Source: a virus. Taken from it: a DNA stretch of 24,198 bases. The position numbers were made by a program, and so were the translations under genes. The notes beneath the pieces were generated by a model that saw only the letters and a list, made by a program, of their open reading frames with translations, had not been told where the DNA came from and did not search any database. Shown here one piece after another: positions 7,511-20,211 of this stretch; the stretch's first letter is position 1; each line of letters starts with the position of its first letter. The DNA is taken from positions 1 to 24,198 of IMG/VR virus record IMGVR_UViG_3300036885_000535. One strand, given 5' to 3'.

Positions 7511-8653
7511 TCACCAGGTCCTCTTCATGAAGTCGGAGGCGAGCTTGCTGAAGTCGACCGAGGAGACGACCTGCTTGGCCGCGGTGAGGGCCCCCGGGTC
7601 TGGGCGCATCTGCATGCCCAAGGCCCTCTTGCCCTTGTTGATCCAGCCGCGGACCCCGGTCTCCTGGGCCATCGTGTTGCGAGCTGCCTCGCCCTTGGCC
7701 GCTGCGGCCGCAGGGTTGAGAGCGGAGGGCCTGGCCACTGCGGCCGCGGCCGGAGCGGCCGCGCCTGTGGCTCCTGCAGCGGCTGGCACGGCAGCCTTGG
7801 CCGCCTTGCGTGCGGCCAGGTTTTCGAACCCAGCCACGCGCTTCATGTCCTGCATGCCCTTGCCACCCCCACGGATGCCAGTGGCCATCGCATCCCGGGA
7901 CATCTCTCCGATGCGGCCCGTTGTACCGGCGGCCCTCATGGCCAGGGGCTTGGCCGCGTAGCCGGCGCCCGCGCCCAGCGCCGCCCCGCCGGCGATGTTC
8001 TTGGCCATGTAGCCCAGACGGCTCTTCTGCTGCCCGGTGTTGGGGTCCACCCCAGGGTTTCCGAGAGCGCCTCGAGCGGCGCCCAGACCGGCACCCACCA
8101 TCGCCCCACCGCCCGTGAGGGCGTTCCTGCTGGAGCTGATGGCCCCGTGCATCCCTCTGCCGGCCAGGCCCTGCATTCCGGTCTTGAGAGCGCCCAGCAT
8201 GGGGGCGGCCGTCTTCTCCATGCTGCTCTTCTTCTCCTTCCCCTTCTTGCCTCGCTTGATGTTCTCGTCGTGGTGGGCCATGTAGCGCCCGATCTGGTAG
8301 CCGGCGCCGCCGGGGAGGAAGAGGGCGCCCGCGGCCTGGGGAACTCCGAACTCGTACTTCTCGCCCCTCTTCTTCTGCTCGGTCCCGTAGTGGTGGCCGA
8401 CAGCTCCCCCCAAGAGCTGGTCGAAGACGGCGGTCTTCTCCTTCTGCGCCATCTCCGAGCCCATCTGCACGGCCATCGCGCACTTCTCCTCCCACTCGTT
8501 CTGCTGGGAGAGGGCGAGTTGGCCGATGAAGGAGCCCTCCCCGCCGTTCTTCACGAACTCGTCGAGCTGGTCGATGGTCATCGACTCGAAGGTCTCTTCG
8601 AGCTCTTCCGGGCCGTCGCTGAGAGCGCTGGCCATCTTGGTCATCGGGTCCAT
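7511..8653 (-). CDS. Gly/Ala-rich internal virion protein candidate with KEKKSS tag, 380 aa
   Basis: ATG 8653 follows TAGGAGG with a 5-base spacer; the ribosome site contains the stop codon of the upstream gene. Residues 1-80 are acidic and helical and include MTKMASA and AQKEKTAVF. Residues 107-125 and about 185-245 are glycine-zipper-like (GGAGYQIGR, GAGLGAARGAL, GGAALGAGAGY), suggesting membrane-interacting helices. Between them, residues 133-150 hold the basic tag K-R-G-K-K-G-K-E-K-K-S-S-M-E-K-T-A-A, also seen in capsid-region proteins. Residues 285-325 are nearly all Ala, Pro and Lys. The C-terminus ends VDFSKLASDFMKRTW. I do not recognise the family. The composition and tag suggest a packaged or ejected virion protein; this is inference. 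Confidence 0.75.
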   Translation of the reverse strand: MDPMTKMASALSDGPEELEETFESMTIDQLDEFVKNGGEGSFIGQLALSQQNEWEEKCAMAVQMGSEMAQKEKTAVFDQLLGGAVGHHYGTEQKKRGEKYEFGVPQAAGALFLPGGAGYQIGRYMAHHDENIKRGKKGKEKKSSMEKTAAPMLGALKTGMQGLAGRGMHGAISSSRNALTGGGAMVGAGLGAARGALGNPGVDPNTGQQKSRLGYMAKNIAGGAALGAGAGYAAKPLAMRAAGTTGRIGEMSRDAMATGIRGGGKGMQDMKRVAGFENLAARKAAKAAVPAAAGATGAAAPAAAAVARPSALNPAAAAAKGEAARNTMAQETGVRGWINKGKRALGMQMRPDPGALTAAKQVVSSVDFSKLASDFMKRTW

Positions 8654-8662
8654 CAGGTCCTC

Positions 8663-9100
8663 CTACTTGATCATCTTGAGGATGGCCAGCCCCGCCAGAG
8701 CTCCAGCGGGAGCGGCCAAGAGGGCGGCCTTGCCCGGGTGCCTGGCCCCCACGTCGGCCACCGCGGAGACCGCGGGGGCAGTGGCGGCCTGGATGTCCTC
8801 CCGGAACGACAGTGGGCGCTTGTCCTTCTTCGCCTCGGCGGCCATGCCCGCGGTGGCCCGAGCTGCAGCTCTGGACGCTGACTGGTCGACCGAGGGCCTG
8901 CCCCCAGAGCGGGGCCTGGACATGAGGTACTGCCCACCCCCCGCCGCGGCGGCCCCGATCATGGCGGCGCCGATCTGGGGAGCTCGATCCCTGATGGCCT
9001 TGGCCAGGACGTTCGCAGTGGCCTTGGCGTACTCCCCCACTCCGGCCTCTTTCTGGAGGCCTCCGTTCGACAGGGCGTGGAGGAAGGTGAGCTCGTTCAT
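8663..9100 (-). CDS. Small Ala-rich membrane-type protein, 145 aa
   Basis: The frame is open far upstream, but I place the start at ATG 9100 (MNELTFLHAL). A GGGGA ribosome site lies 5 bases before it, and the upstream extension is Ser/Arg/Pro-rich shadow sequence that overlaps the real gene at 9144. The N-terminus resembles that of several neighbours: a short helix and then LQKEAGVGEYAKA. Residues about 40-60 (IGAAMIGAAAAGGGQYL) and 125-145 (ALLAAPAGALAGLAILKMIK) are hydrophobic, Gly/Ala-rich candidate membrane spans. No family recognised. The gene sits in the run of Gly/Ala-rich proteins before the fibre genes. Confidence 0.65.
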   Translation of the reverse strand: MNELTFLHALSNGGLQKEAGVGEYAKATANVLAKAIRDRAPQIGAAMIGAAAAGGGQYLMSRPRSGGRPSVDQSASRAAARATAGMAAEAKKDKRPLSFREDIQAATAPAVSAVADVGARHPGKAALLAAPAGALAGLAILKMIK

Positions 9101-9143
9101 GGCTTCCCCGAGCCTACTGCACCGGCCCTGGTGTGGGAATGAG

Positions 9144-9281
9144 CTAGGTGTAGAAGAGGACGAAGTGGCCGCTGGCCGCGTCGAAGACGATGGCCTTGAT
9201 GACGGAGACGTTGTTGCCGACCGTGTTGACGAACTTGCAGAGATCGGCCGAGGTGAGGAAGTCTGCGCTCTTGAGGCCCAT
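9144..9281 (-). CDS. 45-residue microprotein
   Basis: A complete short frame begins at ATG 9281 behind an excellent ribosome site, AAAGGAG, with a 6-base spacer; the TAG stop of the upstream gene lies inside that spacer. The product begins MGLKSADFLTSADLCKF and ends HFVLFYT. It reads as a normal mixed alpha/beta polypeptide, with VIKAIVFDAASGHFVLFY as a probable beta hairpin. Gap-free placement between two same-strand genes and the strong ribosome site argue that it is translated. No family recognised; it resembles the small unknown proteins commonly found in phage head-tail regions. Confidence 0.7.
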   Translation of the reverse strand: MGLKSADFLTSADLCKFVNTVGNNVSVIKAIVFDAASGHFVLFYT

Positions 9282-9284
9282 GAG

Positions 9285-10022
9285 CTACTCCTTTGGTTTG
9301 TAACCGATGAGGGCCTTGAAGCGCTGCCCGAAGGTCTTCTTCGGAGGAGCTTCGCTTGGCCTCTCGAGAGCTCTTCGCAGGGCTCCCTTGTTGACGTCCT
9401 TGAGCTCGTCCTTGGCGTGGGTGACCACGCCCTTGGCTTCGGTCCCAGCTTGAGCGGAAGCACGCCCTGCCTCGGTCCTGGCGTGGGTGATGACGCTCTT
9501 GGCCTTCCCGGCCCCGTGCCCGACGACACCCTTGGCCTGGTCCCCAGTGTGGGTGGCAACGTCCTTAAGCCGCTCCCCGGTGTGGGTGACCAACTCCTTG
9601 CCCTTCTCGCCAGCGTGGGTGGCTGCTCCCTTGAGCTCGCTTCCGGCGTGGGTCACCAGCTCCTTGCCCTTGCCTGCGGCGTGCTCGAGCGCCCGCTTCC
9701 CCGCACCCTTGAGAGCGACGAGCCCTCTCTTCCCAGCGTGTCCCAAGAGAGCTCCACCTGCAGCAGAAGCCGCGGTGCTCACGGCCATGCGGCCCAGGCG
9801 CTTCTTCCTGTTCTTGGCCTTCTCCGCATCGTTCTTCCCAGCGAAGTCCTCGACGTCACGCTTCTGCATCTCGGACTTGATGTTGCCCAGGCCGCCGAGA
9901 GTCCCTAGCAGGGCGGCTCCGGCTGCCTCAGGCTTCTTGGCGAAGGCCTTGAGAGCCTCGGTCCGAGCTCCAGCGATCTTGGTGAGCTCGTCCTCGAAGG
10001 CGCCCAGCATGAAGATGTCCAT
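9285..10022 (-). CDS. Hendecad-repeat (LEA-like) virion protein candidate, 245 aa
   Basis: ATG 10022 lies three bases past the stop of the upstream gene (TGAgccATG), so coupling is likely; a weak GGTGA may help. Residues 6-19 carry G-A-F-E-D-E-L-T-K-I-A-G-A-R, the helical K-I-A tag also found in the 150-aa protein at 15079. Residues 35-47 and 85-100 are glycine-zipper-like. Residues 114-212 are nine 11-residue repeats of the form [HQ]-[AT]-G-x-x-x-K-x-x-[VA]-T. Such 11-mers are typical of group 3 LEA proteins and of right-handed coiled coils, which are disordered or form long amphipathic helices. The basic tail reads FGQRFKALIGYKPKE. Function unknown; a DNA- or membrane-binding internal protein is possible. 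Confidence 0.75.
   Translation of the reverse strand: MDIFMLGAFEDELTKIAGARTEALKAFAKKPEAAGAALLGTLGGLGNIKSEMQKRDVEDFAGKNDAEKAKNRKKRLGRMAVSTAASAAGGALLGHAGKRGLVALKGAGKRALEHAAGKGKELVTHAGSELKGAATHAGEKGKELVTHTGERLKDVATHTGDQAKGVVGHGAGKAKSVITHARTEAGRASAQAGTEAKGVVTHAKDELKDVNKGALRRALERPSEAPPKKTFGQRFKALIGYKPKE
9387..9683 (-). repeat. Nine tandem 33-base (11-codon) repeats
   Basis: The units, read in order, are HAAGKGKELVT, HAGSELKGAAT, HAGEKGKELVT, HTGERLKDVAT, HTGDQAKGVVG, HGAGKAKSVIT, HARTEAGRASA, QAGTEAKGVVT and HAKDELKDVNK. There are no insertions between units, so the phase is kept over 99 residues. DNA similarity is visible as recurring gcgtgggt and ttgccctt strings on the plus strand. Confidence 0.9.
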
Positions 10023-10025
10023 GGC

Positions 10026-10553
10026 TCACCACTCGCCGTAGAAGTTGTTCACGAACCGGAACTCGGAGAAGACCCCGCCTTCCCAGGCCGACTCGATGTT
10101 CATGGCCACCTTCATCCGCATCTTCTTGTCCTCGTAGGCGTTGCGAAACACCTGCAGCCAGGACTGGATGAAGGGGGTCTTGTCGTTGATGCCGACCTGG
10201 ATGCCTCCGTCGGTGAAGGAGAGGTGGTTGCGGGTCTGCAACAGGCCAATGGACTCGAGCAGGGAGCACACCACCCCGCGGACCAGGAGGCTCAGGGAGG
10301 GGAAGTTCGCGATGCCCCGCTGGGTGAAGGGCGGTGTGGTGTTGAAGTCGTCCAGGGCGTCCATGATGGCCCAGACGATCTGTCGGTTGGAGCTCTCGTA
10401 GCCCGCCACGAGTCGGTTGAGCTCGGGGTAGTCTCGGAGGAAGGCGCGCACCTGGTTGACCAGGTTGTTCAGGTCCAGGTGCGCGCTGGGGATGTCGGGA
10501 GTCCCGTCTCCGGCGAGTGGATCCCAAGCTGCAGAGTCCTGTCGGTCGGCCAC
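10026..10553 (-). CDS. Unknown head/neck-region protein, 175 aa
   Basis: The start is GTG 10553, behind GGGAG with a 7-base spacer, directly after the TAG stop of the preceding gene at 10568. The protein is mixed alpha/beta and normally charged: a helix with LNNLVNQVRAFLRDYPELN, the segment S-N-R-Q-I-V-W-A-I-M-D-A-L-D-D-F-N, then two amphipathic stretches and a Trp-rich end ESAWEGGVFSEFRFVNNFYGEW without a basic tail. It lacks the K-x-A tags of its neighbours. Position a few genes downstream of the capsid gene suggests a head-completion or neck role, by gene order only. I do not recognise the family. Confidence 0.7.
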   Translation of the reverse strand: MADRQDSAAWDPLAGDGTPDIPSAHLDLNNLVNQVRAFLRDYPELNRLVAGYESSNRQIVWAIMDALDDFNTTPPFTQRGIANFPSLSLLVRGVVCSLLESIGLLQTRNHLSFTDGGIQVGINDKTPFIQSWLQVFRNAYEDKKMRMKVAMNIESAWEGGVFSEFRFVNNFYGEW

Positions 10554-10567
10554 GGGTCAGCTCCCTT

Positions 10568-10933
10568 CTACTTCCGCTTGCCGCCCTTGAACTCCTTGTC
10601 CTGGGCGGGGGCGGGCCTCATCTGCTCGACCTCGAGCTTGACCGGGGTGCTCTCGATCATGACCGCGTCGGTCGTCTTCACAGTGTCCGCCACCTTGATC
10701 TTGATGGTCTTGGGGTCGGACGCCGTCTTGGTGAGGTTGGCGTTCTTGATCCCCTGCTGCAGCGTCCACCAGTACGGCAAGCTTCCGAAGGCGAGCACCT
10801 TCTTCTCCTCGAGCTCCCGGTCCCTGTCAGGGATGAACTTGTCCAGCTCCGGGAGGCTCACCGAGCCCCCATCGCGGGGGATGGTGTGGCCCTTGTAGAT
10901 CAGCTCCTGAGAGGTCAGGTTGAAGACGAGCAT
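10568..10933 (-). CDS. Unknown small protein downstream of capsid, 121 aa
   Basis: ATG 10933 is preceded by AAGGAGTAG, in which TAG is the stop of the 140-aa gene; the spacer is 9 bases. The N-terminal 35 residues form a beta-type segment (MLVFNLTSQELIYKGHTIP, then R-D-G-G-S-V-S-L-P-E-L). A conserved-looking F-G-S-L-P-Y-W-W-T-L-Q-Q-G follows near residues 49-61, then LTKTASDPKTIKIKVADTVKT, with one K-T-A tag. The end is basic (EFKGGKRK). Function unknown; the Y-W-W core and small size suggest a structural adaptor. Confidence 0.65.
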   Translation of the reverse strand: MLVFNLTSQELIYKGHTIPRDGGSVSLPELDKFIPDRDRELEEKKVLAFGSLPYWWTLQQGIKNANLTKTASDPKTIKIKVADTVKTTDAVMIESTPVKLEVEQMRPAPAQDKEFKGGKRK

Positions 10934-10939
10934 GTAGAG

Positions 10940-11362
10940 CTACTCCTTGCGCCCCTTCTTGCCCTTGCGCTCGGCGGGGGCGGCGGAGTCCACGGTAGCA
11001 GGAGTCGCCTCGGGCTGCATCACCTCGGTCTTGGCCTCTTCCTTCGGGGGCTCCGGGACAATCACCGCGGGCGGGGAGACCTCGGTCTTGGGCTCCGGCT
11101 TCTTGCCGTTCTTCATCATCTCGCGGAGGGAGCGGCGCTTGCCGCCCTCGACCTCGAAGATCTCGATGGCGTGGGCCTCGTAGAGCCGCTTGATGTCCTT
11201 CTCGAACTTCTTCATGCCCTTCTCGTCGAGCTTGAGGGGCGTCCGGTCGCGGAGGATGTGGGCCCCGATCACCGGGCAGTCGGTGAAGAACGGCGAGGTG
11301 CGCTGGGCGACGCTGAGCTGGCCTGCGGCGCTGTAGATGGAGGCTTCGATCTCGTAGTGCAT
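10940..11362 (-). CDS. Unknown protein with Pro/Glu/Lys-rich tail, 140 aa
   Basis: This is the first gene after the capsid terminator. ATG 11362 has an AAGGGAG site with a 5-base spacer. Residues 1-80 look folded: MHYEIEASIYSAAGQLSVA, V-I-G-A-H-I-L-R-D-R-T-P-L, and a helix KKFEKDIKRLYEAHAIEIFEV-like in character. Residues 88-140 are low complexity, with alternating Pro, Glu, Ala and Lys and a basic end (ERKGKKGRKE). It could be a head-surface or DNA-contact protein; no family recognised. The leader between the terminator and the ATG contains a second small hairpin. Confidence 0.65.
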   Translation of the reverse strand: MHYEIEASIYSAAGQLSVAQRTSPFFTDCPVIGAHILRDRTPLKLDEKGMKKFEKDIKRLYEAHAIEIFEVEGGKRRSLREMMKNGKKPEPKTEVSPPAVIVPEPPKEEAKTEVMQPEATPATVDSAAPAERKGKKGRKE

Positions 11363-11387
11363 GGGCTCTCCCTTCGTTGTGTCCAGA

Positions 11388-11404
11388 GCCTAGCAGGACT
11401 AGGC
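11388..11404 (-). other. Small inverted repeat in the leader of the 140-aa gene
   Basis: GCCTAG and CTAGGC are separated by five bases, about 26-42 bases before ATG 11362. It lies between the capsid terminator and the next ribosome site. It could be part of the terminator region, an operator half-site pair or a stabilising hairpin; nothing distinguishes these. Confidence 0.4.
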
Positions 11405-11416
11405 CCCAGACAGAAC

Positions 11417-11444
11417 GAGGGGAGGAGGCGGACCTCCTCCCCTC
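11417..11444 (-). terminator. Hairpin terminator after the major capsid gene
   Basis: A perfect 12-base-pair stem (GAGGGGAGGAGG with CCTCCTCCCCTC) closes a 4-base loop. It starts 27 bases after the capsid stop codon. On the minus strand it is followed by GTTCTGTCT, a short T-rich run rather than a strict U tract. It is by far the strongest hairpin in the minus-strand series and fits an end point, or partial read-through point, for capsid mRNA. Confidence 0.75.
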
Positions 11445-11470
11445 GGAGACTCACTCGAGTCGCGCGTCGC

Positions 11471-12592
11471 CTAGAACTGGTCGACGTAGGGGTACGTCTC
11501 GCCGGCGTCGGCGAAGTTGTTGACCGGCGCCATGTCGTCCTCGGACAGCGGCAGGGCGTTCTGGGAGTTCGCGCTGAGCTGGGTGGGGGTCACGGAGCCC
11601 GAGTACAGCTCGAGCTTGACCACCGACGCGATGTTGCCGAACCCCATCCCGATGTCTTCCCAGGACTGCCAGGTGATGAGGTTGGCGATCTTGTCGATGT
11701 AGAACTTGGTGTTGTTCAGGATGTAGAAGCGGCCGAAGAACTCCGGGGCGGTGAAGCAGTAGACGTTGCCCTCCCGGAGGATCTCGGTCTTGATGGTGCG
11801 GATGATCTTCAGGCCGGTCACCGTGTTGGCCTTCCAGCCCTCGGTGGCGGTCTCGGCCGCGATGTTCCAGACGTCCTGGATGGTCCAGGCCGACAGGTTG
11901 TCGTAGTCCGGCTCGGTGATGACGATGCGCTCGGCGCGCAGGTGGCGGCGGTGCAGGAGCTGCTTCAGCTTGATGAAGTCCGGCTTCAGCACCGGGTGGA
12001 CGACGAAGTCGTCCGTGGCCGCCGAGATGGCCCCGGCGCCCTTGACCACCGACACCGCCAGCGTGGTGCCGGCGACGAAGTGGGCGACGTCGAACTTCTT
12101 CCAGGCCTCGCCGTTGCCCTCGTACTGGTACGCCTGCACGCAGGACTCGACGAACAGGAGGAACTGCCTGTCCTCGATGGCCTGGATGTCCTTCACCGAG
12201 TTCTCCTCGATGATCTTGGTGATGGGCATCTCGTAGGCCAGGAGCTCCTGCTCGGTCTTCTCGAACTTCTCGCTGGAGATCGTGAAGAACGGGATCTCGT
12301 AGCGGGAGCCGCGGATGAGGCGAGCCGTGGGCTGGCCACGGAAGGTCAGCGCCATCGCCCGCGAGTTCGGCTCGATGTCCACGACCTTGACGAGCGTGTC
12401 GTGGTTCACGGAGCGCTGGAGCTCGGCGCGCTGGACGTTGACCGGGGGGACGATCTTCCGCGCGAAGCTGACTTCACGCAGACGGTCGCGGATGTAGGTG
12501 CCGCCGAACTCGGCGATCTTGTCCTTGCCTTCGCCGGTGGCCACCTTCTCGAAGAACAGGTCGTTGAGGACCTTTGCGGGAACTGCGCTCAT
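11471..12592 (-). CDS. Major capsid protein (HK97-fold type), 373 aa
   Basis: ATG 12592 follows GGAG with a 6-base spacer. The protein has the size and mixed alpha/beta profile of an HK97-fold capsid subunit: an N-arm, a segment Y-I-R-D-R-L-R-E-V-S-F-A-R-K-I then P-P-V-N-V-Q-R, a long central helix region around residues 110-150, and a C-terminal region with Y-I-L-N-N-T-K-F-Y-I-D-K-I-A-N-L-I-T-W. Position after scaffold-like and decoration-like genes, strong G/C-ending codon bias and a dedicated terminator all fit the most abundant virion protein. Residues 15-18 (EKVA) and 24-27 (DKIA) match the tag seen in neighbouring proteins and could be where an N-terminal propeptide is removed. The capsid call rests on profile and context, not on a database match. 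Confidence 0.75.
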   Translation of the reverse strand: MSAVPAKVLNDLFFEKVATGEGKDKIAEFGGTYIRDRLREVSFARKIVPPVNVQRAELQRSVNHDTLVKVVDIEPNSRAMALTFRGQPTARLIRGSRYEIPFFTISSEKFEKTEQELLAYEMPITKIIEENSVKDIQAIEDRQFLLFVESCVQAYQYEGNGEAWKKFDVAHFVAGTTLAVSVVKGAGAISAATDDFVVHPVLKPDFIKLKQLLHRRHLRAERIVITEPDYDNLSAWTIQDVWNIAAETATEGWKANTVTGLKIIRTIKTEILREGNVYCFTAPEFFGRFYILNNTKFYIDKIANLITWQSWEDIGMGFGNIASVVKLELYSGSVTPTQLSANSQNALPLSEDDMAPVNNFADAGETYPYVDQF

Positions 12593-12658
12593 CTTGATCT
12601 CCGTTTCTTGTGGGCTCAGGTTCTACTGGGCCGGAGGGGTTGGGGTTGTGGTGGGGGA

Positions 12659-13138
12659 CTAGGTCAGGGCCGCCAGCAGGACCGGGCTGGTCCGCACGAA
12701 GCGCACCTTGCCCGACGAGGGCAGGCGGGTGACGTAGCCGACCTCCACGGCACCGGCCTTGCCGTCCGACAGAGCCAGGCCGCGCTTGTTGGTGAACGGC
12801 CCCGCTGTCAGCGTCTTGACCATCAGCTTGCTGCCGATGACCAGGTTGGTGTTGTCCACCACCGCCGTCTCCGCCTCGAACTGCCCGAGGAAGAGGACGT
12901 TGCTCTTGCCCAGCGCCTGGGTGTCGTACCGGCCGCGCTCGGTGTGGATCGGGTAGACGCAGAGCTTGCCGTAGCCCGTGCCGCGGGTGAGCTGGTAGCT
13001 GTCGTTGAGCTCGAGCCACTCGCCGTCCACCAGCGCGGTGGGGTCGAGGGGCTTGAGCATCGTGGGGTTGTCCACCGGGAAGTCCCGGCGGGTCAGGGTC
13101 TGCAGCTCGGTGACGAGCTCGAAGTTGGGGGCTGCCAT
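12659..13138 (-). CDS. Capsid decoration/cement protein candidate, 159 aa
   Basis: ATG 13138 has an AAGGAG site with a 7-base spacer. The protein is almost all beta type: F-E-L-V-T-E-L-Q-T-L-T-R-R-D-F-P near the N-terminus, G-E-W-L-E-L-N-D-S-Y-Q-L, Y-P-I-H-T-E-R-G-R-Y-D-T-Q, G-S-K-L-M-V-K-T-L, and a C-terminal V-G-Y-V-T-R-L-P-S-S-G-K-V-R-F-V-R-T. It has no Cys-rich, helical or K-x-A tag segments. Small beta-barrel proteins encoded immediately upstream of the capsid gene are often head decoration proteins, and codon bias as strong as the capsid gene suggests high expression. The role is inferred from position and composition. Confidence 0.55.
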   Translation of the reverse strand: MAAPNFELVTELQTLTRRDFPVDNPTMLKPLDPTALVDGEWLELNDSYQLTRGTGYGKLCVYPIHTERGRYDTQALGKSNVLFLGQFEAETAVVDNTNLVIGSKLMVKTLTAGPFTNKRGLALSDGKAGAVEVGYVTRLPSSGKVRFVRTSPVLLAALT

Positions 13139-13180
13139 CGCGAATCTCCTTCAAGAGGGTGAGAGGTTGATGTGAGGCGA

Positions 13181-13200
13181 TTGCACCACCACTGGTGCAA
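13181..13200 (-). other. Perfect inverted repeat before the decoration gene
   Basis: TTGCACCA and TGGTGCAA are separated by four bases. It lies in the 80-base gap between the coiled-coil gene (stop 13219) and the decoration gene (start 13138), about 43 bases before the start codon. No T tract follows. It may be a weak terminator, an mRNA-stabilising 5' hairpin for the decoration/capsid message or an operator. Confidence 0.6.
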
Positions 13201-13218
13201 AGCGGGAAGAGGAAACTT

Positions 13219-13614
13219 CTAGAGCGAGGCCAGGTTGGAGGCGAACTGCGTCGCGGCCATGTCGTTCTCCGCGTCGCTGCTGCCGCCCTCGACCGACACC
13301 TGGCCCCCGTCGGCCACCGATGCCAGCTTCGTCTGCGGCGCGGTCAGCTCGACCGCCTTCTCCACCACCGCGATGTCGTCGCGCGTCATGAGGTTCTCGA
13401 TCTTGGTCCCGATGTCGGTCTCGGGCTCGAGGCCCTTCTCCGTCATCTTGGACGCGATCTTCTCCACGCGCGCCCGCTTCTCGAAGTGGGCGACCTTCTC
13501 CTGCAGCTCCTGGTTCTCCGTCCGGAGGCCCTGGTTCTCGGTCGAAAGGGCCCGGACGTTCTCGGCGGCCAGCTTCATCATCTGGCCAGCCTGGGCACCG
13601 CTGTACTTGATCAT
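13219..13614 (-). CDS. Coiled-coil scaffold-like protein, 131 aa
   Basis: ATG 13614 follows GGAG with a 6-base spacer. Residues about 12-55 form a heptad-type coiled coil (KLAAENVRALSTENQGLRTE, then NQELQEKVAHFEKRARVEKI). The acidic second half holds short helices and ends in a Ser/Ala-rich tail (ATQFASNLASL). K-[LI]-A tags occur at MMKLAAE, VEKIASK and QTKLASV. Position just ahead of the decoration and capsid genes, coiled-coil content, acidity and the tags suggest an assembly scaffold or its core component. That is an inference; no specific family is recognised. Confidence 0.7.
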   Translation of the reverse strand: MIKYSGAQAGQMMKLAAENVRALSTENQGLRTENQELQEKVAHFEKRARVEKIASKMTEKGLEPETDIGTKIENLMTRDDIAVVEKAVELTAPQTKLASVADGGQVSVEGGSSDAENDMAATQFASNLASL

Positions 13615-13659
13615 GACGTTCTCCTGTGTCGGCGCTCTTGGTCTGGGTGACCCTTCGGC

Positions 13660-15066
13660 CTAGCTCTTCTTCTCCTCGTCCTTGCCTTCCTTCTTCTCGT
13701 CTCCGTCCTTCCCGGCCTTCCGGTCGGCGATGGCCTTCTTCAAGGCCTCGTGCCGGGGGTCGTTCGGGTCGGCGGCGATCTTCTGGAGGGCTTCCTTCGC
13801 TGCCTCTGCGATCTTCACGCCACCCTTGGAGGCGTTCCGCAGATTGTCCTGGACCTTGGAGTCCGTGGACTTGGTGAGGGCGGGCTCGGTCAGGACCTGA
13901 GCCAGCTCAGCCTTGCGGGGCGCCTTGGCCTCGCGCTTGGTGGCGCTGACGGGCGCCTGGTTGTTGGCGATGAGCTGCCGGCCCGGGGCGGCCTGGGGCT
14001 TGGGGCCCTGCTGCGCCGCGCTGTCCAGCGTCTCGCCACCGCCGTGGAACTCGGCGACCTTGCTGAGGATGAAGTCGACGGGGCTGGTCTCGGCCTCGGA
14101 CTTCTTCTCCTTGCTCTTGATCGGGTGCTTCTCCTCCTGCCGGGACTTGGTCAGGAAGCCGCCGAAGGGGTTGTAGGCGTTCCGATCCTTCTCGTGCTTC
14201 TTGGCGGCGTAGTCCATGTGCCGGTTCGTGAGCCTGTTGCCGATGCGGTGGAGGTAGCTCGCCTTGCCACCGATTCCCCCACCGATGGTGAGGTCAGCGG
14301 CCGTGGCCAGGCCGGTCGTGCCTGGACGCTTGCCCTTGTAGTCCTCGTGGGCCTGGGTCTTCTTGTGGGCGGCCTCGGCGTCGGCCTTGTAGGACTCGGC
14401 GTCGAGCTTGTGGCCCTCGCCGGTCACGGAGAAGGCCATCTTCTCGAGCGCGCCCTGGAGCAGCTCGACGGAGGACTTCTTCTCCTTCTCGCCGTGGACG
14501 CAGCACTTGGGGTCCTTCTTGCCGTCCTTGCAGGTGCAGGCCTCGGCGGTCTTCAGCACGCCCTTCTTCGGGTAGCTGGAGGTGAGGGGCACGGGCGGCT
14601 TGTGCTGGGTGTCGGGGTTGGCCGTGGCCGCGCTGCCGGTCTCCTTCTTCGCCTCGAGGCCGGTGGAGGTCGGCACCTGGTGGTGGGCCGAGTCCTTCTT
14701 GTAGTTCTGCTTGCCGCCGACGGGGCTGGCCGTGGCGAGCTGCTGCCCGCCCTGATGGCTCTCGCCACCGTTCTCGATGGAGTCGGACTCCTTGATGAAG
14801 TCGTCGCCCATCTCGTCGAGGGCCGAGGCGAGCTTGTCCATCTCCTCGGGGTCGGAGATGTTGAGGATGGCCGAGGACTTCTTCTCCTTGCCTTCCTCTT
14901 CCTTCTTCTCCTCGGCCTTGGACTCGCCCTTCTCATGCTTGGAGAAGGGGTTCTCCTTCTTCTTCTCCTTCTCCTCGGCCGCGGCCAGCTTCGTCCGCGC
15001 GGAGTCGATGGTCTGCGCGATCATGTCCTGCAGCGGGAGGTGACCAGCGAGCGTGGGGTGAAGCAT
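13660..15066 (-). CDS. Lys/Glu-rich scaffold or internal head protein with three KEKKSS tags, 468 aa
   Basis: ATG 15066 has AAGGAG with a 5-base spacer, a few bases after the TAA of the upstream gene. The protein is highly charged and probably extended. It has three copies of one tag: residues 60-80 (KEKKSS to MDKLA), 194-211 (KEKKSSVELLQGALEKMA) and 319-338 (KEKKSE to ILSKVA), each a basic-serine segment, a short helix and K-x-A. A further EALQKIA is at 425-431, and the C-terminus ends EEKKS. A Cys-rich patch, C-T-C-K-D-G-K-K-D-P-K-C-C-V-H, spans residues 177-191. Residues 255-293 are a glycine-zipper (T-I-G-G-G-I-G-G-K) followed by a basic helix. Scaffold or cleaved internal protein is the best guess from position and composition. 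Confidence 0.7.
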   Translation of the reverse strand: MLHPTLAGHLPLQDMIAQTIDSARTKLAAAEEKEKKKENPFSKHEKGESKAEEKKEEEGKEKKSSAILNISDPEEMDKLASALDEMGDDFIKESDSIENGGESHQGGQQLATASPVGGKQNYKKDSAHHQVPTSTGLEAKKETGSAATANPDTQHKPPVPLTSSYPKKGVLKTAEACTCKDGKKDPKCCVHGEKEKKSSVELLQGALEKMAFSVTGEGHKLDAESYKADAEAAHKKTQAHEDYKGKRPGTTGLATAADLTIGGGIGGKASYLHRIGNRLTNRHMDYAAKKHEKDRNAYNPFGGFLTKSRQEEKHPIKSKEKKSEAETSPVDFILSKVAEFHGGGETLDSAAQQGPKPQAAPGRQLIANNQAPVSATKREAKAPRKAELAQVLTEPALTKSTDSKVQDNLRNASKGGVKIAEAAKEALQKIAADPNDPRHEALKKAIADRKAGKDGDEKKEGKDEEKKS

Positions 15067-15078
15067 GGCTTCTCCTTC

Positions 15079-15531
15079 TTACGCACCGGGCATGGTGACC
15101 GGCGGAGGTGGCATCGTGCGACTGCTGCTCAAGTGATCCAAGGTGGCAGACGGCGGTTCCGGTTCCTTCACGATTGGCTTCGAGGTCAGCTTCGGCGTCG
15201 ACGCCAAGGTGGACTTCCTCTTCATCATCTTCGTCACGTCTCCAACGGATGCCGCTGCAGCGATCTTCTGGAGCTCATCTGAGAACCCCATCCACAAGGC
15301 CAAGCTGCTCGTCTTGGACTTGTGGCCAGGGTCCGCGGTCTTCTTGTACTCGGACTTCGGCTCGTCGTACTTCTGCTTCGCCTCTCTCTTCCCTTCCGCC
15401 GTCCCGTACCCCTTTGGCGACTTGCCAGTGGCGTGAGCTTGCTGGGTAGCGATGGCCCACGACTGCGACTCGGGCATGTCCGGGTTCTTGGCCCTGATGT
15501 GCTTCGCCCTGTCGTGGATCCACTGAGGCAT
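15079..15531 (-). CDS. Phage protein with W-I-H-D-R-A domain and K-I-A tag, 150 aa
   Basis: The frame is open upstream, but I favour ATG 15531 (MPQWIHDRAKHIRAKNP), because the N-terminal domain, as I remember similar phage proteins, begins there; its markers are W-I-H-D-R-A, A-I-A-T-Q-Q-A-H and G-K-S-P-K-G-Y-G-T-A-E-G-K-R. An alternative ATG at 15606 would sit inside an 11-bp hairpin with no usable spacing to a ribosome site. No good ribosome site precedes 15531, but a 28-codon frame starting at 15620 ends two bases before it, so coupling is possible. Residues 63-91 hold KKTADPG and then KTSSLALWMGFSDELQKIA, the tag shared with other capsid-region proteins. The tail is basic then Pro-rich (PPPPVTMPGA). 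Function unknown. Confidence 0.65.
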   Translation of the reverse strand: MPQWIHDRAKHIRAKNPDMPESQSWAIATQQAHATGKSPKGYGTAEGKREAKQKYDEPKSEYKKTADPGHKSKTSSLALWMGFSDELQKIAAAASVGDVTKMMKRKSTLASTPKLTSKPIVKEPEPPSATLDHLSSSRTMPPPPVTMPGA

Positions 15532-15544
15532 CGTCAGGACCAAG

Positions 15545-15582
15545 TCCCCCGGGTTTGGCACAGTACGTCCGCGCCCGGGGGA
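15545..15582 (-). other. Inverted repeat upstream of the 150-aa gene
   Basis: TCCCCCGGG (15545-15553) and CCCGGGGGA (15574-15582) are perfect 9-base arms around a 20-base spacer. It is the second of two dyads in the 98 bases between the 280-aa gene and ATG 15531. It may fold in the mRNA leader; no T tract is present. Confidence 0.5.
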
Positions 15583-15591
15583 GTTGAGGTC

Positions 15592-15618
15592 GGCCGGCGA
15601 GGCCATTCCTCGCCGGCC
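15592..15618 (-). terminator. 11-bp GC-rich hairpin after the 280-aa gene
   Basis: GGCCGGCGAGG and CCTCGCCGGCC are perfect 11-base arms with a 5-base loop, starting 12 bases after the stop at 15630. There is no following T tract on either strand, so it may be a pause, an RNA-processing or stability element rather than a true terminator. It would bury the alternative ATG at 15606. Confidence 0.5.
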
Positions 15619-15629
15619 ATCAGGTTGAG

Positions 15630-16472
15630 CTACTCCTTCTGCTGCTCCGGCTCCTGCTCGGCGGGGGTCACGCCGTACTGGCCCAGGAGGTTCCACGCGC
15701 GCTGCTCGACCTCATTCGCCAGCACCTCGCGGGGGTCGACGGTCTCGTCGGCGCTGACCTTCTCCTGCTCCTGCTCGACCGGCTTCAGGCTCTCCGGGTC
15801 GATGCCGCTGGCCTGGAGGATCTCGTTGGCGCGGGCCAGGACGAGGGTGTCGACGGCGCTGAGCTCCTGCTCGCCCTCGGCCGCCGACTTCTTCTCCTTG
15901 CCCTTCTTGCCGCCGAACGCCTTCTTGGCGCCGACGCCGGCCGCGGTGGCCGCGGCCGCGTGGGGCAGGAACTTCGCCGCGCCCTTGGCGCCGGAGATGA
16001 CCCGGCCCTTGGCGCCCAGGTCGAAGTCGCGCACGCCGCCGGACTTGCCGGTGATGCTCTTCACGCCCTTGACGGCGCCCTTGACGTCCTCGGCCGCACC
16101 CGCGTGGTACTTCTTCACGGCGCCCAGGACCTTGCCGGCCACTTCCTTGGCGCCGGCGGTCTTCTCGATCTCGTTGAGCTCCTGGACGTAGGAGTGGGCC
16201 ATGACGCGCCCGAGGTAGTCGGCCTCGGCGACCTTCTCCTGGGCCTCCTCCTCGGCGCTGGTCTTCTCCTGACCGTCTTCGCCCTGCTGCTCTTCCTCGG
16301 CCGGAGCGAGCACCTGCTGCGCGATGGCCTCGAGGTCCTCCTCGGTCATCGCCTCGGTGTTGATCTCGTCGTCGCCCGCCAACTGGGTGGCGAGCTCGGC
16401 CGCGGCCAGCTTCTCGATGTCGGCCTCGGTGGTCTGGTTGGTGCCGTAGATCTCAGCGAGCTTCGGGTCCAT
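15630..16472 (-). CDS. Acidic scaffold/internal protein candidate with K-x-A tags, 280 aa
   Basis: ATG 16472 has AAGGAG with a 7-base spacer. The N-terminal 105 residues are acidic and helical, with IEKLAAAE, QEKTSAEE, QEKVAEADYLGRVMAHSYVQ and then E-L-N-E-I-E-K-T-A-G-A. I recall helices of the D-[FY]-L-G-R-V-M-A-H type in uncharacterised phage head-region proteins. Residues 110-190 are basic and Gly/Ala-rich (KGAVKGVKSITGKSGG, HAAAATAAGVGAKKAFGGKK), followed by GKEKKSAAEG. The C-terminus is acidic again with QEKVSADE. Strong G/C-ending codons suggest high expression. Alternating acidic and basic blocks and position between candidate protease and capsid suggest a scaffold or processed internal protein; the role is inferred. 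Confidence 0.7.
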   Translation of the reverse strand: MDPKLAEIYGTNQTTEADIEKLAAAELATQLAGDDEINTEAMTEEDLEAIAQQVLAPAEEEQQGEDGQEKTSAEEEAQEKVAEADYLGRVMAHSYVQELNEIEKTAGAKEVAGKVLGAVKKYHAGAAEDVKGAVKGVKSITGKSGGVRDFDLGAKGRVISGAKGAAKFLPHAAAATAAGVGAKKAFGGKKGKEKKSAAEGEQELSAVDTLVLARANEILQASGIDPESLKPVEQEQEKVSADETVDPREVLANEVEQRAWNLLGQYGVTPAEQEPEQQKE

Positions 16473-16534
16473 CGTGATCTCCTTCGAGGGTTGAGGTTGC
16501 TGGCCGTCTTCGAGGTCTAAACCCCTGGGCCGAA

Positions 16535-16551
16535 GCTCTCGTCATGAGAGC
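16535..16551 (-). other. Small hairpin overlapping the stop of the 549-aa gene
   Basis: GCTCTC and GAGAGC surround a 5-base loop that includes the TGA stop of the protease-candidate gene. The stem is only six base pairs with no T tract. The remaining 62 bases to the next start hold only the AAGGAG ribosome site. A weak element at most. Confidence 0.35.
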
Positions 16552-18191
16552 CAAACGTGGTCCACCGCCTCAACAGCGGTGGTGTGAAGCAGCCGCCGGT
16601 CTTCAAGGTACGCGCCCATCATGTACACCACCGAGTCGAGGGTGAGAAGCGGAGAAGAGCTCGACGTCTTCATCATCATGTTTCCGAGTCCTTCTCCTAG
16701 AACAACTTCCCTCAACCTTGGGTCGCGCTGCAACACCTCTGTTGCCTTCGACAGCTTCGTCATGACCTCGCGGCGATACCCATTGTATGCCGCGCCCAAC
16801 TTGTTCAGCAAAGGATGGCCGATTGCAGACTGCATGGGAAGAGGAAGTTTCGGTGTGTCACGGTGTAGATGTACACGGATCGAGAAGGGCTGACCGAAGG
16901 CTCCTCGCTCCGAGACGTAGGAGCTCAAGATCTCCATCGCCTTCTTGATGCCGTCACCTGCTTCGTCACCCGCCTCCAGAGTGATGTCGACGGACATGAA
17001 TCCCTCAGAGACGGAGGGGAAGACCTCGTTCTTGCGCTCGAGCTGCTCGAGCAGGTCGTCCTCCCCCATCCTCTTGAGGGCCAGGTATTGGAACTCCTGC
17101 GGCTTGAGGATCATCCCCATGACCGTACTGGCTCCGAGGACTCCGGGGAGAGGGAGCTTCGCCAGCTCGTCGAGGTGAGGGCGTGTGATGGTGGGCTCGG
17201 ACTGCTCGAGCTCGGGCAGCCTCCTCATGGAGAAGGTGCCGGCGGGGATGTCCTTGATGATCTCGGACACCTTGTTGTGGGCTGCGGTCTTGCCGAAGGC
17301 GGAGGCCATCTTGGCCATGCCACCGCAGTTGCGGTCGCACTCGGCACAGGAACGGTCTGGGCAAGCGGGGAGAGCCGAGGCGGTCTTGGTGTGGCCCAGG
17401 TCGATGTAGAAGCGGTGGCCGGCATCGGCGGACAGCTCGTTCCGCTCGAACTGGGCAGAGGCCAGCTTGGCCATCACCTTGGCAGTCTTGTCGGCTCCGA
17501 TGAAGACGAAGCTGATGTCGAAGAACCTGGGGTAGATGTTCTTGACGAAGATCTTGCGGCCGTCGACCAGGATGCGGTTGGGGCCATAGAGGTAGCGCAG
17601 CTCCTCCGGCGGCCTCATATGGAGGCAGTAGTCGTCCTTGGTCTTGGAGTGCGCCGAGCAGATGGAGCACTCGTCCCAGGGGACCTTGCATCCCATAGAG
17701 ACGTCAGGGAACTCCCCCATGTCGATGCGGGTGATGATGCCGTCCGCACCCTCGGCCCTTGCCTTCTCCCGGTCGAGCCTGATGATGAGCTCGACGCGCT
17801 TCATCATCGGGTTGAGGATGGAGAAGAGGGGCTTGCCGAACGCCCGAGCAGGGTCCTTGTTCTTGTGGTGCTGGAAGGCGTTGGCGTTGAGGAAGGTCCG
17901 GTAGCCGTAGTCGTCCCCCTCATGGCAGAGGGAGTTCCAGGGGAACCAGTCGGCGTTGATGTTGCTGCCGTAGAACTCGCCGGCGCCGAGGGCGTTCACC
18001 AGGACGTAGCAGGCCTGCTCCCGGTCCTTCTTGGTGATGCCCCCCACGGCCTTCCGCAGCTCTTCCCCCGTCTCCCAGTCGGAGAAGGGAGGGGCTCCGG
18101 CAGTCTTCTCGAAGCAGCCCGAGCTCCCGAAGAGCGCCTGAGCCAGAATACCCTGGTCGGACTGCCCGACGAAGTGGAGCTGCTTGATCAT
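16542..18191 (-). CDS. Candidate prohead maturation protease with Cys clusters, 549 aa
   Basis: ATG 18191 overlaps the upstream stop by one base (TGATG), indicating coupling. Residues 69-170 look like a phage capsid-protease core: G-A-G-E-F-Y-G-S-N-I-N-A-D-W-F-P, then F-Q-H-H-K-N-K-D-P (H108/H109), a strand M-K-R-V-E-L-I-I-R-L-D, and G-E-F-P-D-V-S-M-G-C (S165). A His followed some 50-60 residues later by V-S-x-G fits herpesvirus-fold prohead proteases. Immediately after is a C-x2-C...C-x-H cluster (C175, C178, C189, H191), and a second Cys group (C277, C282, C285, C289). EKTAGA at residues 28-33 would be a natural autoprocessing site; MAKLASA, TKTASA and MAKMASA follow mid-protein. Residues 330-549 are an unrecognised domain. 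Position ahead of scaffold-like genes and capsid matches protease placement in large myoviruses. The catalytic assignment is inferred. Confidence 0.6.
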   Translation of the reverse strand: MIKQLHFVGQSDQGILAQALFGSSGCFEKTAGAPPFSDWETGEELRKAVGGITKKDREQACYVLVNALGAGEFYGSNINADWFPWNSLCHEGDDYGYRTFLNANAFQHHKNKDPARAFGKPLFSILNPMMKRVELIIRLDREKARAEGADGIITRIDMGEFPDVSMGCKVPWDECSICSAHSKTKDDYCLHMRPPEELRYLYGPNRILVDGRKIFVKNIYPRFFDISFVFIGADKTAKVMAKLASAQFERNELSADAGHRFYIDLGHTKTASALPACPDRSCAECDRNCGGMAKMASAFGKTAAHNKVSEIIKDIPAGTFSMRRLPELEQSEPTITRPHLDELAKLPLPGVLGASTVMGMILKPQEFQYLALKRMGEDDLLEQLERKNEVFPSVSEGFMSVDITLEAGDEAGDGIKKAMEILSSYVSERGAFGQPFSIRVHLHRDTPKLPLPMQSAIGHPLLNKLGAAYNGYRREVMTKLSKATEVLQRDPRLREVVLGEGLGNMMMKTSSSSPLLTLDSVVYMMGAYLEDRRLLHTTAVEAVDHVWLS

Positions 18192-18979
18192 CAGGGCTTC
18201 TTGGGAGGCACGAACCTGTTGGGGACGGCACGCACGGCATCTGCCGCGGCCTCACGAGCGATACGATCCTGCACCGAGCGCTGCTCGTGCTGGTCCCTCT
18301 CGTGAGCATCGAAGTCGCTGGAGCCCCGGCCCATCACGTCCCTGAGAGCGCTCTTCTGGGCCTCTGGCTGACGCTTCAGCCAGGCCATGCGCTCGACCCT
18401 CTTGTCGTCCATGTCGTCGAGCACTGAGGCGGGAATGTACGGGGCGTTCATGGAGGAGTACTGCCCCTTCTTGATGTCGCGCAGGTTCTTGCGGCTGTTG
18501 AGGAGGTCCTTCACGAGCTGGTGCTGGTTCTCGGGGATCTCCACCATCGCCTTGAGGATCTGGCCGCCGAGGTTCGGGTCCGAGGTGAAGTCCGGCGCGT
18601 AGCGGTGGAAGGTGTCGTAGGACTTCTTGATGTCCTTCTGGTCGAAGTTCCTCTTGATGTCCGGGTTGGCCTCCATGATGCGCTTGAAGTTCATGCCCTT
18701 GGTGAGGCCCCGCTTGGCCGCGTCGTAGAGGTCGGTGGCCACCGCCCCGGCGAGCCCCGCCCCTACCATCCCAGCAACCCCCAGAGCCCAGGCCTTCGGA
18801 CCCCCGAGGTCGGTGGCGGACACCTTCTCGGAGGTGTACTCGGTGATGGTCGAGAGCTCGGCCGTCAGGTCTTCTGCGAACTCCGGGTCGATGTGCTCGA
18901 GCACGAAGAGCGCCTTGGCCACCTTCTCGAGCAGTTCGGGAGCTGCTTCTCCAGCAGCCTTGAGGATCTCAGCGTTCAT
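18191..18979 (-). CDS. Unknown capsid-region protein with membrane-type segment, 262 aa
   Basis: Two in-frame ATGs lie six bases apart. I choose 18979 (MNAEILKAAG) because AGGGG is then 7 bases upstream; at 18985 the spacer would be one base. The upstream stop overlaps the first ATG (ATGA). Residues 10-25 contain PELLEKVAKALFVL and residues about 50-55 SEKVSA, the family tag. A Gly/Ala-rich hydrophobic stretch, GVAGMVGAGLAGAVATDLY, spans about 65-85. The rest is charged and helical: F-K-R-I-M-E-A-N-P-D-I, F-H-R-Y-A-P-D-F-T-S-D-P-N-L-G-G, then M-N-A-P-Y-I-P-A-S-V. I do not recognise the family. Confidence 0.7.
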   Translation of the reverse strand: MNAEILKAAGEAAPELLEKVAKALFVLEHIDPEFAEDLTAELSTITEYTSEKVSATDLGGPKAWALGVAGMVGAGLAGAVATDLYDAAKRGLTKGMNFKRIMEANPDIKRNFDQKDIKKSYDTFHRYAPDFTSDPNLGGQILKAMVEIPENQHQLVKDLLNSRKNLRDIKKGQYSSMNAPYIPASVLDDMDDKRVERMAWLKRQPEAQKSALRDVMGRGSSDFDAHERDQHEQRSVQDRIAREAAADAVRAVPNRFVPPKKP

Positions 18980-18981
18980 GT

Positions 18982-19269
18982 TCATGCCCCTGGAGGTGTG
19001 GGAGGCTGGCCCATCATGGACTTCTGGACTTCTGGATTGAAGCCCGCCTTGTACTGGTCGTACTTGCCTTTGGCGCCAACGACCCCCAAACCCGCCCCGA
19101 GACCCACACCCAGAGTTGCCCCGGGCTTTCTCATGGCGAGAGCGCCTAGTCCCTTGCCAACACCCCAAGCGCCCTTGGCCGCTGCCCCCAAGAGCCCTGC
19201 CCTCTTCTCAAGGGCGAGCTCGCGAAGGTGGGAAGAGGCTGAGGCGTACTTGGAGAGCTGTGCGAGCAC
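18982..19269 (-). CDS. Small Gly/Ala-rich membrane-type protein, 95 aa
   Basis: The start is GTG 19269, with TAGGAGAGG directly upstream; its TAG is the stop of the 310-aa gene. The N-terminal helix carries LSKYASASSHLRELALEKRAG. Residues 24-75 are nearly all Gly, Ala, Val and Leu, with glycine-zipper spacing (GLLGAAAKGAWGVGKGLGAL, GATLGVGLGAGLGVVGAKG). This suggests one or two membrane-inserting helices. The end is Pro-rich (MMGQPPTPPGA) and its stop overlaps the ATG at 18985. It resembles in style the 145-aa and 380-aa proteins. Function unknown; ejection or membrane contact is possible. Confidence 0.65.
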   Translation of the reverse strand: MLAQLSKYASASSHLRELALEKRAGLLGAAAKGAWGVGKGLGALAMRKPGATLGVGLGAGLGVVGAKGKYDQYKAGFNPEVQKSMMGQPPTPPGA

Positions 19270-19278
19270 GGGCCTCTC

Positions 19279-20211
19279 CTACGCGAGGAACCGCTGGCGG
19301 ATGAAGTCGTCCACCTTCTTGAGCTCCGGCATGACATCTTCCAGGCCCTTGGCCACTGCCCCGAGCTCCTCGCTGCAGGCCACCACCGCCCCCGCGGCTT
19401 TCACCATGGGGTTCTCGGTGTTGATGATGCGGTGGGCGACCTTGTCGAGCTTGGTCAGGTCGTACTTCATCTCGTCGCCGCTCAGCACCCGCTCCTTCAG
19501 GAAGCCGACGATGACCGGCTGCAGGACCTCGGCGATCTTGGTCTGGCTGCTGGTGGTGGCTTCGACGGCGCGGAAGACGTCCGCCATCGAACCGCCCTCG
19601 AGGACGTGGCGCTTGGCCAGCTCGTAGAGCTCGGCGGAGGCCTCCTTGAACATCAGGTCGAGCTGCTCGGCGGAACCCCGGAGGCTGTCGCGCAGGCCGA
19701 CCAAGGCGTCCTTGGCCGAGGTGATCTCGTTGATGGCGGAATCCCTGGAGAAGTCGGCCTCGGCGGTCTTCTCCTTCGACATCCCGAACATCTCGGCGAG
19801 GGCCGCTTCCCGCGGGTCGGCTGAGGAGACCTTCTCCTTCTGCGGCTGCAGCCCATACTCCCGGTCGGTCTGGGTGACCACGGTCGGCCTGGCCCCGTCG
19901 CTCATGTCCTGGATGACCCGGCCGGGGTCGGCGAGGGCGAACTGGGGGTAGCTCGTGGCCGCGCCGGCAGTCTTGTTCTTGTCGTGCAGGGCGAGGTAGG
20001 TCGCCGTGTTGGCGAACTCCACGACGCGCTTGACCTGCTCGGGAGAGATGTCATCGTAGGCCGAGGCGATCTTCACCACGGCCTCGTTCAGCGACACCTG
20101 CTCGTCGAGGAAGAGGTTGGCCGCCTGCTTGCCCATCACCTCGAGCATCTCGGGGGAGACGGAAGCGTGACGGTGGCCATCGGCCAAGTAGTTGGAGAGG
20201 TCGTCGCTCAT
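19279..20211 (-). CDS. Virion-associated candidate, first gene of the capsid series, 310 aa
   Basis: ATG 20211 follows GGAGAG with a spacer of about 7 bases. Residues 1-75 are helical, with VVKIASAYDDISPEQVKRVV and E-F-A-N-T-A-T-Y-L-A-L-H; I recall similar E-Q-V-x-R-V-V-E-x-A-N segments in uncharacterised phage head-region proteins. Four tag-like motifs follow: KNKTAGA (79-84), QKEKVSSADPREA (125-135), SKEKTAEADF (145-153) and QTKIAEV. The second half is long amphipathic helices (A-E-Q-L-D-L-M-F-K-E-A-S-A-E-L-Y-E-L-A-K). It is not a recognisable portal: no portal-type wing or clip motifs and too short. G/C-ending codon bias suggests strong expression. Likely an internal or head-assembly protein, by inference. 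Confidence 0.7.
   Translation of the reverse strand: MSDDLSNYLADGHRHASVSPEMLEVMGKQAANLFLDEQVSLNEAVVKIASAYDDISPEQVKRVVEFANTATYLALHDKNKTAGAATSYPQFALADPGRVIQDMSDGARPTVVTQTDREYGLQPQKEKVSSADPREAALAEMFGMSKEKTAEADFSRDSAINEITSAKDALVGLRDSLRGSAEQLDLMFKEASAELYELAKRHVLEGGSMADVFRAVEATTSSQTKIAEVLQPVIVGFLKERVLSGDEMKYDLTKLDKVAHRIINTENPMVKAAGAVVACSEELGAVAKGLEDVMPELKKVDDFIRQRFLA

Follow-up and report, generated by a model that had tools for sequence, protein, structure and literature searches.

In phage T4, the prohead protease gp21 processes the core proteins at L/I-x-E sites and is itself processed (PMC9026906), and the giant-phage enzymes gp175 of phiKZ and gp245 of SPN3US use S/A-x-E and A-x-E sites, with Ser favoured at P1′ in the latter (PMC10052503, PMC9026906). 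The T4 proteins IPI, IPII, IPIII and Alt carry a capsid targeting sequence that gp21 removes; its first ten residues are enough for packaging, and docking and cleavage can coexist in that phage (PMC9026906). Here, we describe a short motif, K-[T/I/V/L/M]-A (K-x-A below), that recurs in the head proteins of the phage in IMG/VR virus record IMGVR_UViG_3300036885_000535, of which a stretch of 24,198 bases (the window) was analysed. A first-pass annotation had taken the motif for a head targeting or cleavage signal. We consider it highly probable that it is the code of the phage's own candidate prohead protease, encoded at 16542–18191, and that it also forms part of a cargo tag.

Enrichment and conservation of the motif

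The head module comprises the minus-strand genes at 7511–20211 (Table 1), with the large terminase gene at 21476 (profile matches to phrog_675 and GpA_ATPase). Expected motif counts were taken from within-protein shuffles that kept composition. Counted together, the 14 head-module proteins hold [ED]K[TIVLM][AS] 21 times where 2.1 were expected (z 13), which bears out the suggested excess over composition-matched shuffles, and K[TIVLM]A 39 times against 10.8 (z 8.9). The mirror motif A[TIVLM]K (8 vs 10.8), [TIVLM]KA, KA[TIVLM] and R[TIVLM]A were at or below expectation in the same 14 proteins. All 11 products named in the first-pass annotation do carry copies of K-[TIVLM]-[AS], with five (13219, 13660, 15630, 16542 and 19279; p ≤ 0.013) significant individually; the excess in the 9285 and 18191 products was not significant when each was tested alone. 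Across the remaining window proteins (terminase, fibres, helix-turn-helix (HTH) protein, 159-aa and 175-aa proteins and others), [ED]K[TIVLM][AS] occurred 0 times against 0.6 expected and K[TIVLM]A twice against 3.1. The claimed absence outside the head set therefore stands for the pooled counts but not for the 175-aa protein, which holds one conserved KVA (10104–10112, residue 148; 26 copies vs 4.0 in its family).

The same statistics recovered the T4 code, used as a positive control: [LI]xE gave z 5.8 among the T4 head proteins that are cleaved and z 1.4 among the remaining T4 proteins. In phiKZ head proteins, z was no more than 2.3 for the known [AS]xE and 2.9 for bare K[TIVLM]A. Neither Glu code was enriched in the window substrates ([LI]xE, z 0.8; [AS]xE, z 0.7), as opposed to K[TIVLM]A (z 9.3), so T4-like or phiKZ-like Glu sites were ruled out there and the asserted unlikeness to the T4 sites holds. 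An extended motif, [LMIVFYQ]xK[TIVLM][AS][SAGE], was found 25 times against 1.3 expected in the window substrates and 0 times against 0.7 in the other window proteins, although its z-score is somewhat optimistic because its form was derived from a site logo that includes the window. In the head proteins of T4 (3 vs 0.8) and phiKZ (5 vs 1.6) its counts were lower, and it separates the window substrates from these heads better than the bare motif does.

Searching IMG/VR with the capsid protein gave at least 246 related stretches, several of them in contigs of 190–210 kb. Five such contigs (G001, G004, G006, G010 and G012) were read whole, with genes called by a simple script, and families common to at least three genomes were tested. 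The K[TIVLM]A excess lay mainly in head families, for most of them in 6/6 genomes (the window and the five contigs), including the families of the 13219 (23 vs 2.1), 13660 (44 vs 8.9), 15630 (24 vs 4.8) and 19279 (28 vs 5.0) products, the protease (34 vs 6.8) and the capsid protein (14 vs 3.8). A family of 568-aa proteins encoded outside the window was also enriched (32 vs 5.2, 5/5 genomes). As negative controls, the terminase family held 7 copies against 12.6 expected and the family of the 159-aa protein 14 against 9.1, and families outside the top 45 summed to 62 against 123, a contrast to which the ranking itself contributes. Rather than being equally frequent in non-head proteins, the motif was thus nearly absent from them, with the same pattern in the full genomes of the relatives. 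An unbiased whole-genome scan ranked K[TIVLM]A above every other a-[TIVLM]-b pattern in the window, G012 and G010. The signal was diluted in the other relatives, G004 lacking the top rank though its head proteins carry the motif, and tests at the level of head families were therefore needed.

Conservation was scored over 25–39 non-redundant relatives per family. Motif lysines were conserved at a mean of 0.73, compared with 0.36 for other lysines and 0.38 for flanking residues (Mann–Whitney p ~3e-9 each). In the 13660 family, five of six scored sites were conserved at 77–94%. Enrichment, restriction to head families, conservation, the position of the sites and the N-terminal tag (both described below) are read directly from the sequences, and with these the proposal of a head-specific processing and targeting code is well supported, cleavage at the motif being probable.

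The candidate protease and the proposed cut

The protease gene lies within the head module, adjoining the scaffold and capsid genes in the window and in the five related genomes. Its product is laid out as an N-terminal propeptide, a core (residues ~39–231), a disordered linker (232–317) and a C-terminal domain; the core is confident in the AlphaFold model, and residues 15–37, 232–317 and 501–512 are of low confidence. Eight of the nine K[TIVLM][AS] copies fall within these low-confidence, predicted disordered parts, leaving the core free of them. Over 40 relatives, the N-terminus held 43 sites against 4.5 expected, the linker 180 against 33.9 and the tail 39 against 8.0, compared with 15 against 22.2 in the core. 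S165, H108, H109 and D225 are invariant in 39/39 relatives, which makes the Ser and His residues candidate catalytic ones. By tblastn, Rhodococcus phage E3 and Gordonia phage Pupper gave weak matches, to proteins annotated as prohead or capsid maturation proteases, and the BFVD fold matches included several prohead proteases and phage G gp19. Sequence and fold searches of the PDB with the protease returned nothing useful, the full-length model having no match there below E 0.001. Overall, the enzyme fits the prohead-protease family, with proposed sites that do not end in Glu as those of the gp21, gp175 and gp245 group do. Some relatives encode proteases of 930–1670 aa (L007, L017 and L015), and in L015, L024, L061, L065 and L078 the terminase appears as two or three matching pieces within one open frame of ~970–1470 aa; both look like the result of inteins.

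In the capsid protein, the proposed maturation site KDKIA is kept as K[TIVLM][AS] in 97% of 32 non-redundant relatives. A logo of 251 sites from the enriched families (window included) gave the consensus [MFILQ]-E-K-[TLVIM]-A-[S/A/G/E], which reads like a protease site. Ala is followed by S, A, G or E; P and D are absent from this position and L is nearly so, and the next position is A or V. This layout corresponds to P3-x-P1 followed by a small residue, as in the SPN3US and T4 sites, with Lys and Ala substituted, and because of this resemblance the bond after Ala (K-x-A↓[S/A/G/E]) is most likely the one that would be cut. Herpesvirus assemblin, a maturational protease made with the scaffold, likewise cuts between Ala and Ser, and self-cutting frees it from a longer fusion. 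Its sites have no Lys at P3, and the analogy extends to Ala at P1 only.

Compared with gp21, the proposed code is again a short P3-x-P1 motif with a loose middle position, present in many copies in core proteins, with the protease gene beside the capsid gene and the protease predicted to be processed itself; it differs in having Ala at P1 and Lys at P3 in place of Glu and Leu/Ile. With gp175 and gp245 it would share multi-copy propeptides on head proteins, Ser favoured after the cut and a C-terminal propeptide on the protease, whereas those enzymes cut after Glu.

More distant phages carry related sites. In Salmonella phage Arash and Vibrio phage D69, the protease is 37–39% and the capsid protein 27–30% identical over the matched parts, and, with head and non-head sets picked by us from gene order and homology, [LMIVFY]xKxA[ASG] was found 24 times in head proteins of each (1.3 expected in Arash, 1.9 in D69) and 2 (vs 2.4) and 3 (vs 1.7) times, respectively, in their other proteins. 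The middle residue is freer in these two phages (pooled logo, G-[LMI]-[EV]-K-x-A-S). Site positions correspond in the capsid protein (GLVKEAG in Arash and GLTKEAG in D69, aligned by eye with KDKIA of the window) and at the protease N-terminus (LTKQA in Arash, LEKSA in D69). For Bacillus phage G, four head proteins gave 12 vs 2.1, with an excess also in some nearby proteins of unknown function. In gp96 and gp97 of Mycobacterium phage Myrna (L142, 8198–15336), [KR][TIVLM]A was found 19 times against 5.8 expected and its mirror 4 times against 5.8, suggesting, tentatively, that the code drifts to [KR]-x-A in Myrna-like actinophages. We lean towards a large-phage protease lineage, spanning the uncultured ~200 kb phages, Arash and D69, phage G and perhaps the Myrna-like actinophages with [K/R]-x-A, that would use a basic-x-Ala code cut after Ala, the uncultured group adding a cargo tag.

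An N-terminal tag on candidate cargo

In the five genomes, E[LMF]xK[TIVLM][AS] starting at residues 6–21 was found in 33 non-core proteins where 0.4 were expected. Including other loci, 78 proteins carry this tag, and they have at least 43 bodies without detectable mutual similarity. The tag spans ~17 residues with the consensus [A/S]-F-x-D-E-L-x-K-I-A, the lysine most often being residue 15. Like the T4 capsid targeting sequence, it is a short N-terminal peptide common to unrelated proteins; its own consensus, its length and the number of bodies set it apart. The tagged proteins are inferred from the sequences to be packaged in the head.

Within the window, the 9285–10022 product starts with the tag, which recurs inside the 15079 product. 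The body of the former consists of repeated helical units (KELVTHAGSELKGAATHAGEKGKELVTHTGERLKDVATHTG) resembling LEA or apolipoprotein repeats, and the protein is possibly packaged cargo that interacts with DNA or membrane. The dozens of unrelated proteins marked elsewhere include a C92 amidase/NlpC-like body, MazG with a nucleotide-binding-like part, and weak kinase-like and PARP-like matches. One tagged protein (L108, 16377–17153, plus strand), with a weak PARP/ADP-ribosyltransferase match (E 0.029), may correspond to Alt, which T4 packages.

Phage polyvalent proteins are multi-domain, probably packaged proteins with InPase, ADP-ribosyltransferase and peptidase domains, for which processing by an internal metallopeptidase was proposed (Iyer et al, 2017; PMC5512222). 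One such protein here (L127, 7497–9773, minus strand; 758 aa) carries copies of the motif. It has the leader EFTKTA, C39 peptidase and InPase domains (Pfam) and a YHGT-type stretch resembling ADP-ribosyltransferases. K15, K181, K522 and K663 bracket the domains at 18–133 and 524–656, with further sites at K137, K405 and K489. Where that work invoked internal metallopeptidase domains, this protein has prohead-protease-like K-x-A sites between its domains. Taken together, the data distinguish two uses of the motif: an internal or linker site fits cleavage, and the N-terminal F-x-D-E-L-x-K-I-A tag fits targeting followed by cleavage.

Proposed mechanism, alternatives and other features

In the mechanism we propose, the 16542–18191 protease would recognise K-[T/I/V/L/M]-A and cut after Ala. 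The scaffold and core proteins, with many copies each, would be shredded, the capsid protein would shed ~27 N-terminal residues at KDKIA↓EF, and the protease, by self-cleavage in its N-terminal propeptide and C-terminal linker, would release its core. The tag would direct unrelated cargo into the prohead and then be removed at the same motif. If so, this would be a new prohead-protease specificity, basic-x-Ala, outside the x-x-Glu rule of T4, phiKZ and SPN3US. The proteins packed and injected by an uncultured phage could be listed from sequence alone, the processed head proteins of never-grown phages would become a testable list, and the tag could be used as a short peptide that brings foreign proteins into phage heads. 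A literature search (open-access PubMed Central papers) for K-X-A, Arash and the tag strings found no description of such a code.

We infer, rather than read from the sequences, that a bond is cut at all, which one it is and that the 16542–18191 enzyme cuts it. Several observations weigh against this proposal. Bare K[TIVLM]A is mildly raised in the heads of T4 (10 vs 4.0) and phiKZ (17 vs 8.7), where it is not used, and the bare count alone is therefore not decisive. The protease C-terminal domain, largely folded in the model, also exceeds chance (62 vs 21.1 over 40 relatives). Finally, two conserved copies sit where cutting is implausible, KIA at capsid residue 301 (11684–11692, in a predicted beta strand) and KVA 148 of the 175-aa protein; both were rejected as signals and are probably structural, so presence of the motif does not by itself make a site.

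A pure docking motif would also account for much of the enrichment. K-x-A might be a docking peptide only, through which its bearers attach to a scaffold or core protein and are drawn into the prohead without being cut there, and the tag resembles a binding peptide in being longer than protease recognition would require and in lying at a nearly constant distance from the N-terminus. We consider docking alone unlikely, considering the preference for S, A, G or E immediately after Ala, where P and D do not occur, the clustering of sites around the protease core and not inside it, the many copies in scaffold-like proteins and the sites at polyprotein domain borders. It is very improbable that another phage or host protease, rather than the 16542–18191 product, cuts the motif. 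Other peptidase genes do occur in the relatives, but the code is seen in phages that share this type of protease (Arash, D69 and phage G) and sites flank the product's own core. Lys/Ala-rich amphipathic helices are scarcely credible as the source of the excess, though the mild T4 and phiKZ excess might suggest them, since such an artefact was rejected for the extended motif by the mirror and permuted motifs and the T4 and phiKZ controls (it stays a caveat for the bare motif) and is disfavoured by conservation and position, the sites being conserved islands amid variable, predicted disordered stretches.

Table 1 Features of the head module and proposed sites (arrow, proposed cut; counts are observed vs expected)
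Feature	Coordinates	Strand	Evidence
Head-module protein, four sites	7511..8653	-	Family 38 vs 8.9, 6/6 genomes
Putative packaged cargo, N-terminal tag MDIFMLGAFEDELTKIA at 9972-10022, then helical repeat body	9285..10022	-	Tag family 33 vs 0.4
Small protein, LTKTA and KIKVA, weak case	10568..10933	-	Relatives 4 vs 1.3, present in 2/4
Major capsid protein, HK97 fold	11471..12592	-	phrog_2522, E 1.8e-10; Foldseek HK97 Head II, E 7e-9
Proposed capsid maturation site KDKIA↓EF, residues 25-27	12512..12520	-	Low-confidence N-arm of model
Second, less conserved site FEKVA↓TG, capsid N-terminus	12539..12547	-	31% conserved
Scaffold-like coiled protein, four sites	13219..13614	-	148 vs 13.6, 38 relatives and window protein; p 0.002 alone
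Lys/Glu-rich low-complexity head protein, seven sites	13660..15066	-	232 vs 47.2, 35 relatives and window protein
Protein with KTA, KTS and internal GFSDELQKIA copy of putative targeting tag	15079..15609	-	
Acidic head protein, six sites, conserved IEKLA near N-terminus	15630..16472	-	149 vs 30.6, 33 relatives and window protein
Candidate prohead protease precursor, 549 aa	16542..18191	-	phrog_18299, head maturation protease, E 2.3e-5
Six-site linker cluster DKTA, AKLA, TKTA, AKMA, GKTA, NKVS, after protease core	17265..17489	-	
Site FEKTA↓GA, protease N-terminal propeptide	18099..18107	-	K29 invariant, 29 aligned sequences
Head-module protein, LEKVA and SEKVS	18191..18985	-	44 vs 17.2, 26 relatives and window protein; alone not significant
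Head-module protein, six sites	19279..20211	-	189 vs 28.7, 38 relatives and window protein

The gene labelled RNase HII in the first-pass annotation (23625–24197, plus strand) matches phrog_19422 (E 1.6e-21), a family listed with unknown function. CxxC occurs at ~6 to 8 times expectation across the five large contigs (e.g. 63 vs 9.5), which suggests that small zinc-binding proteins are numerous.

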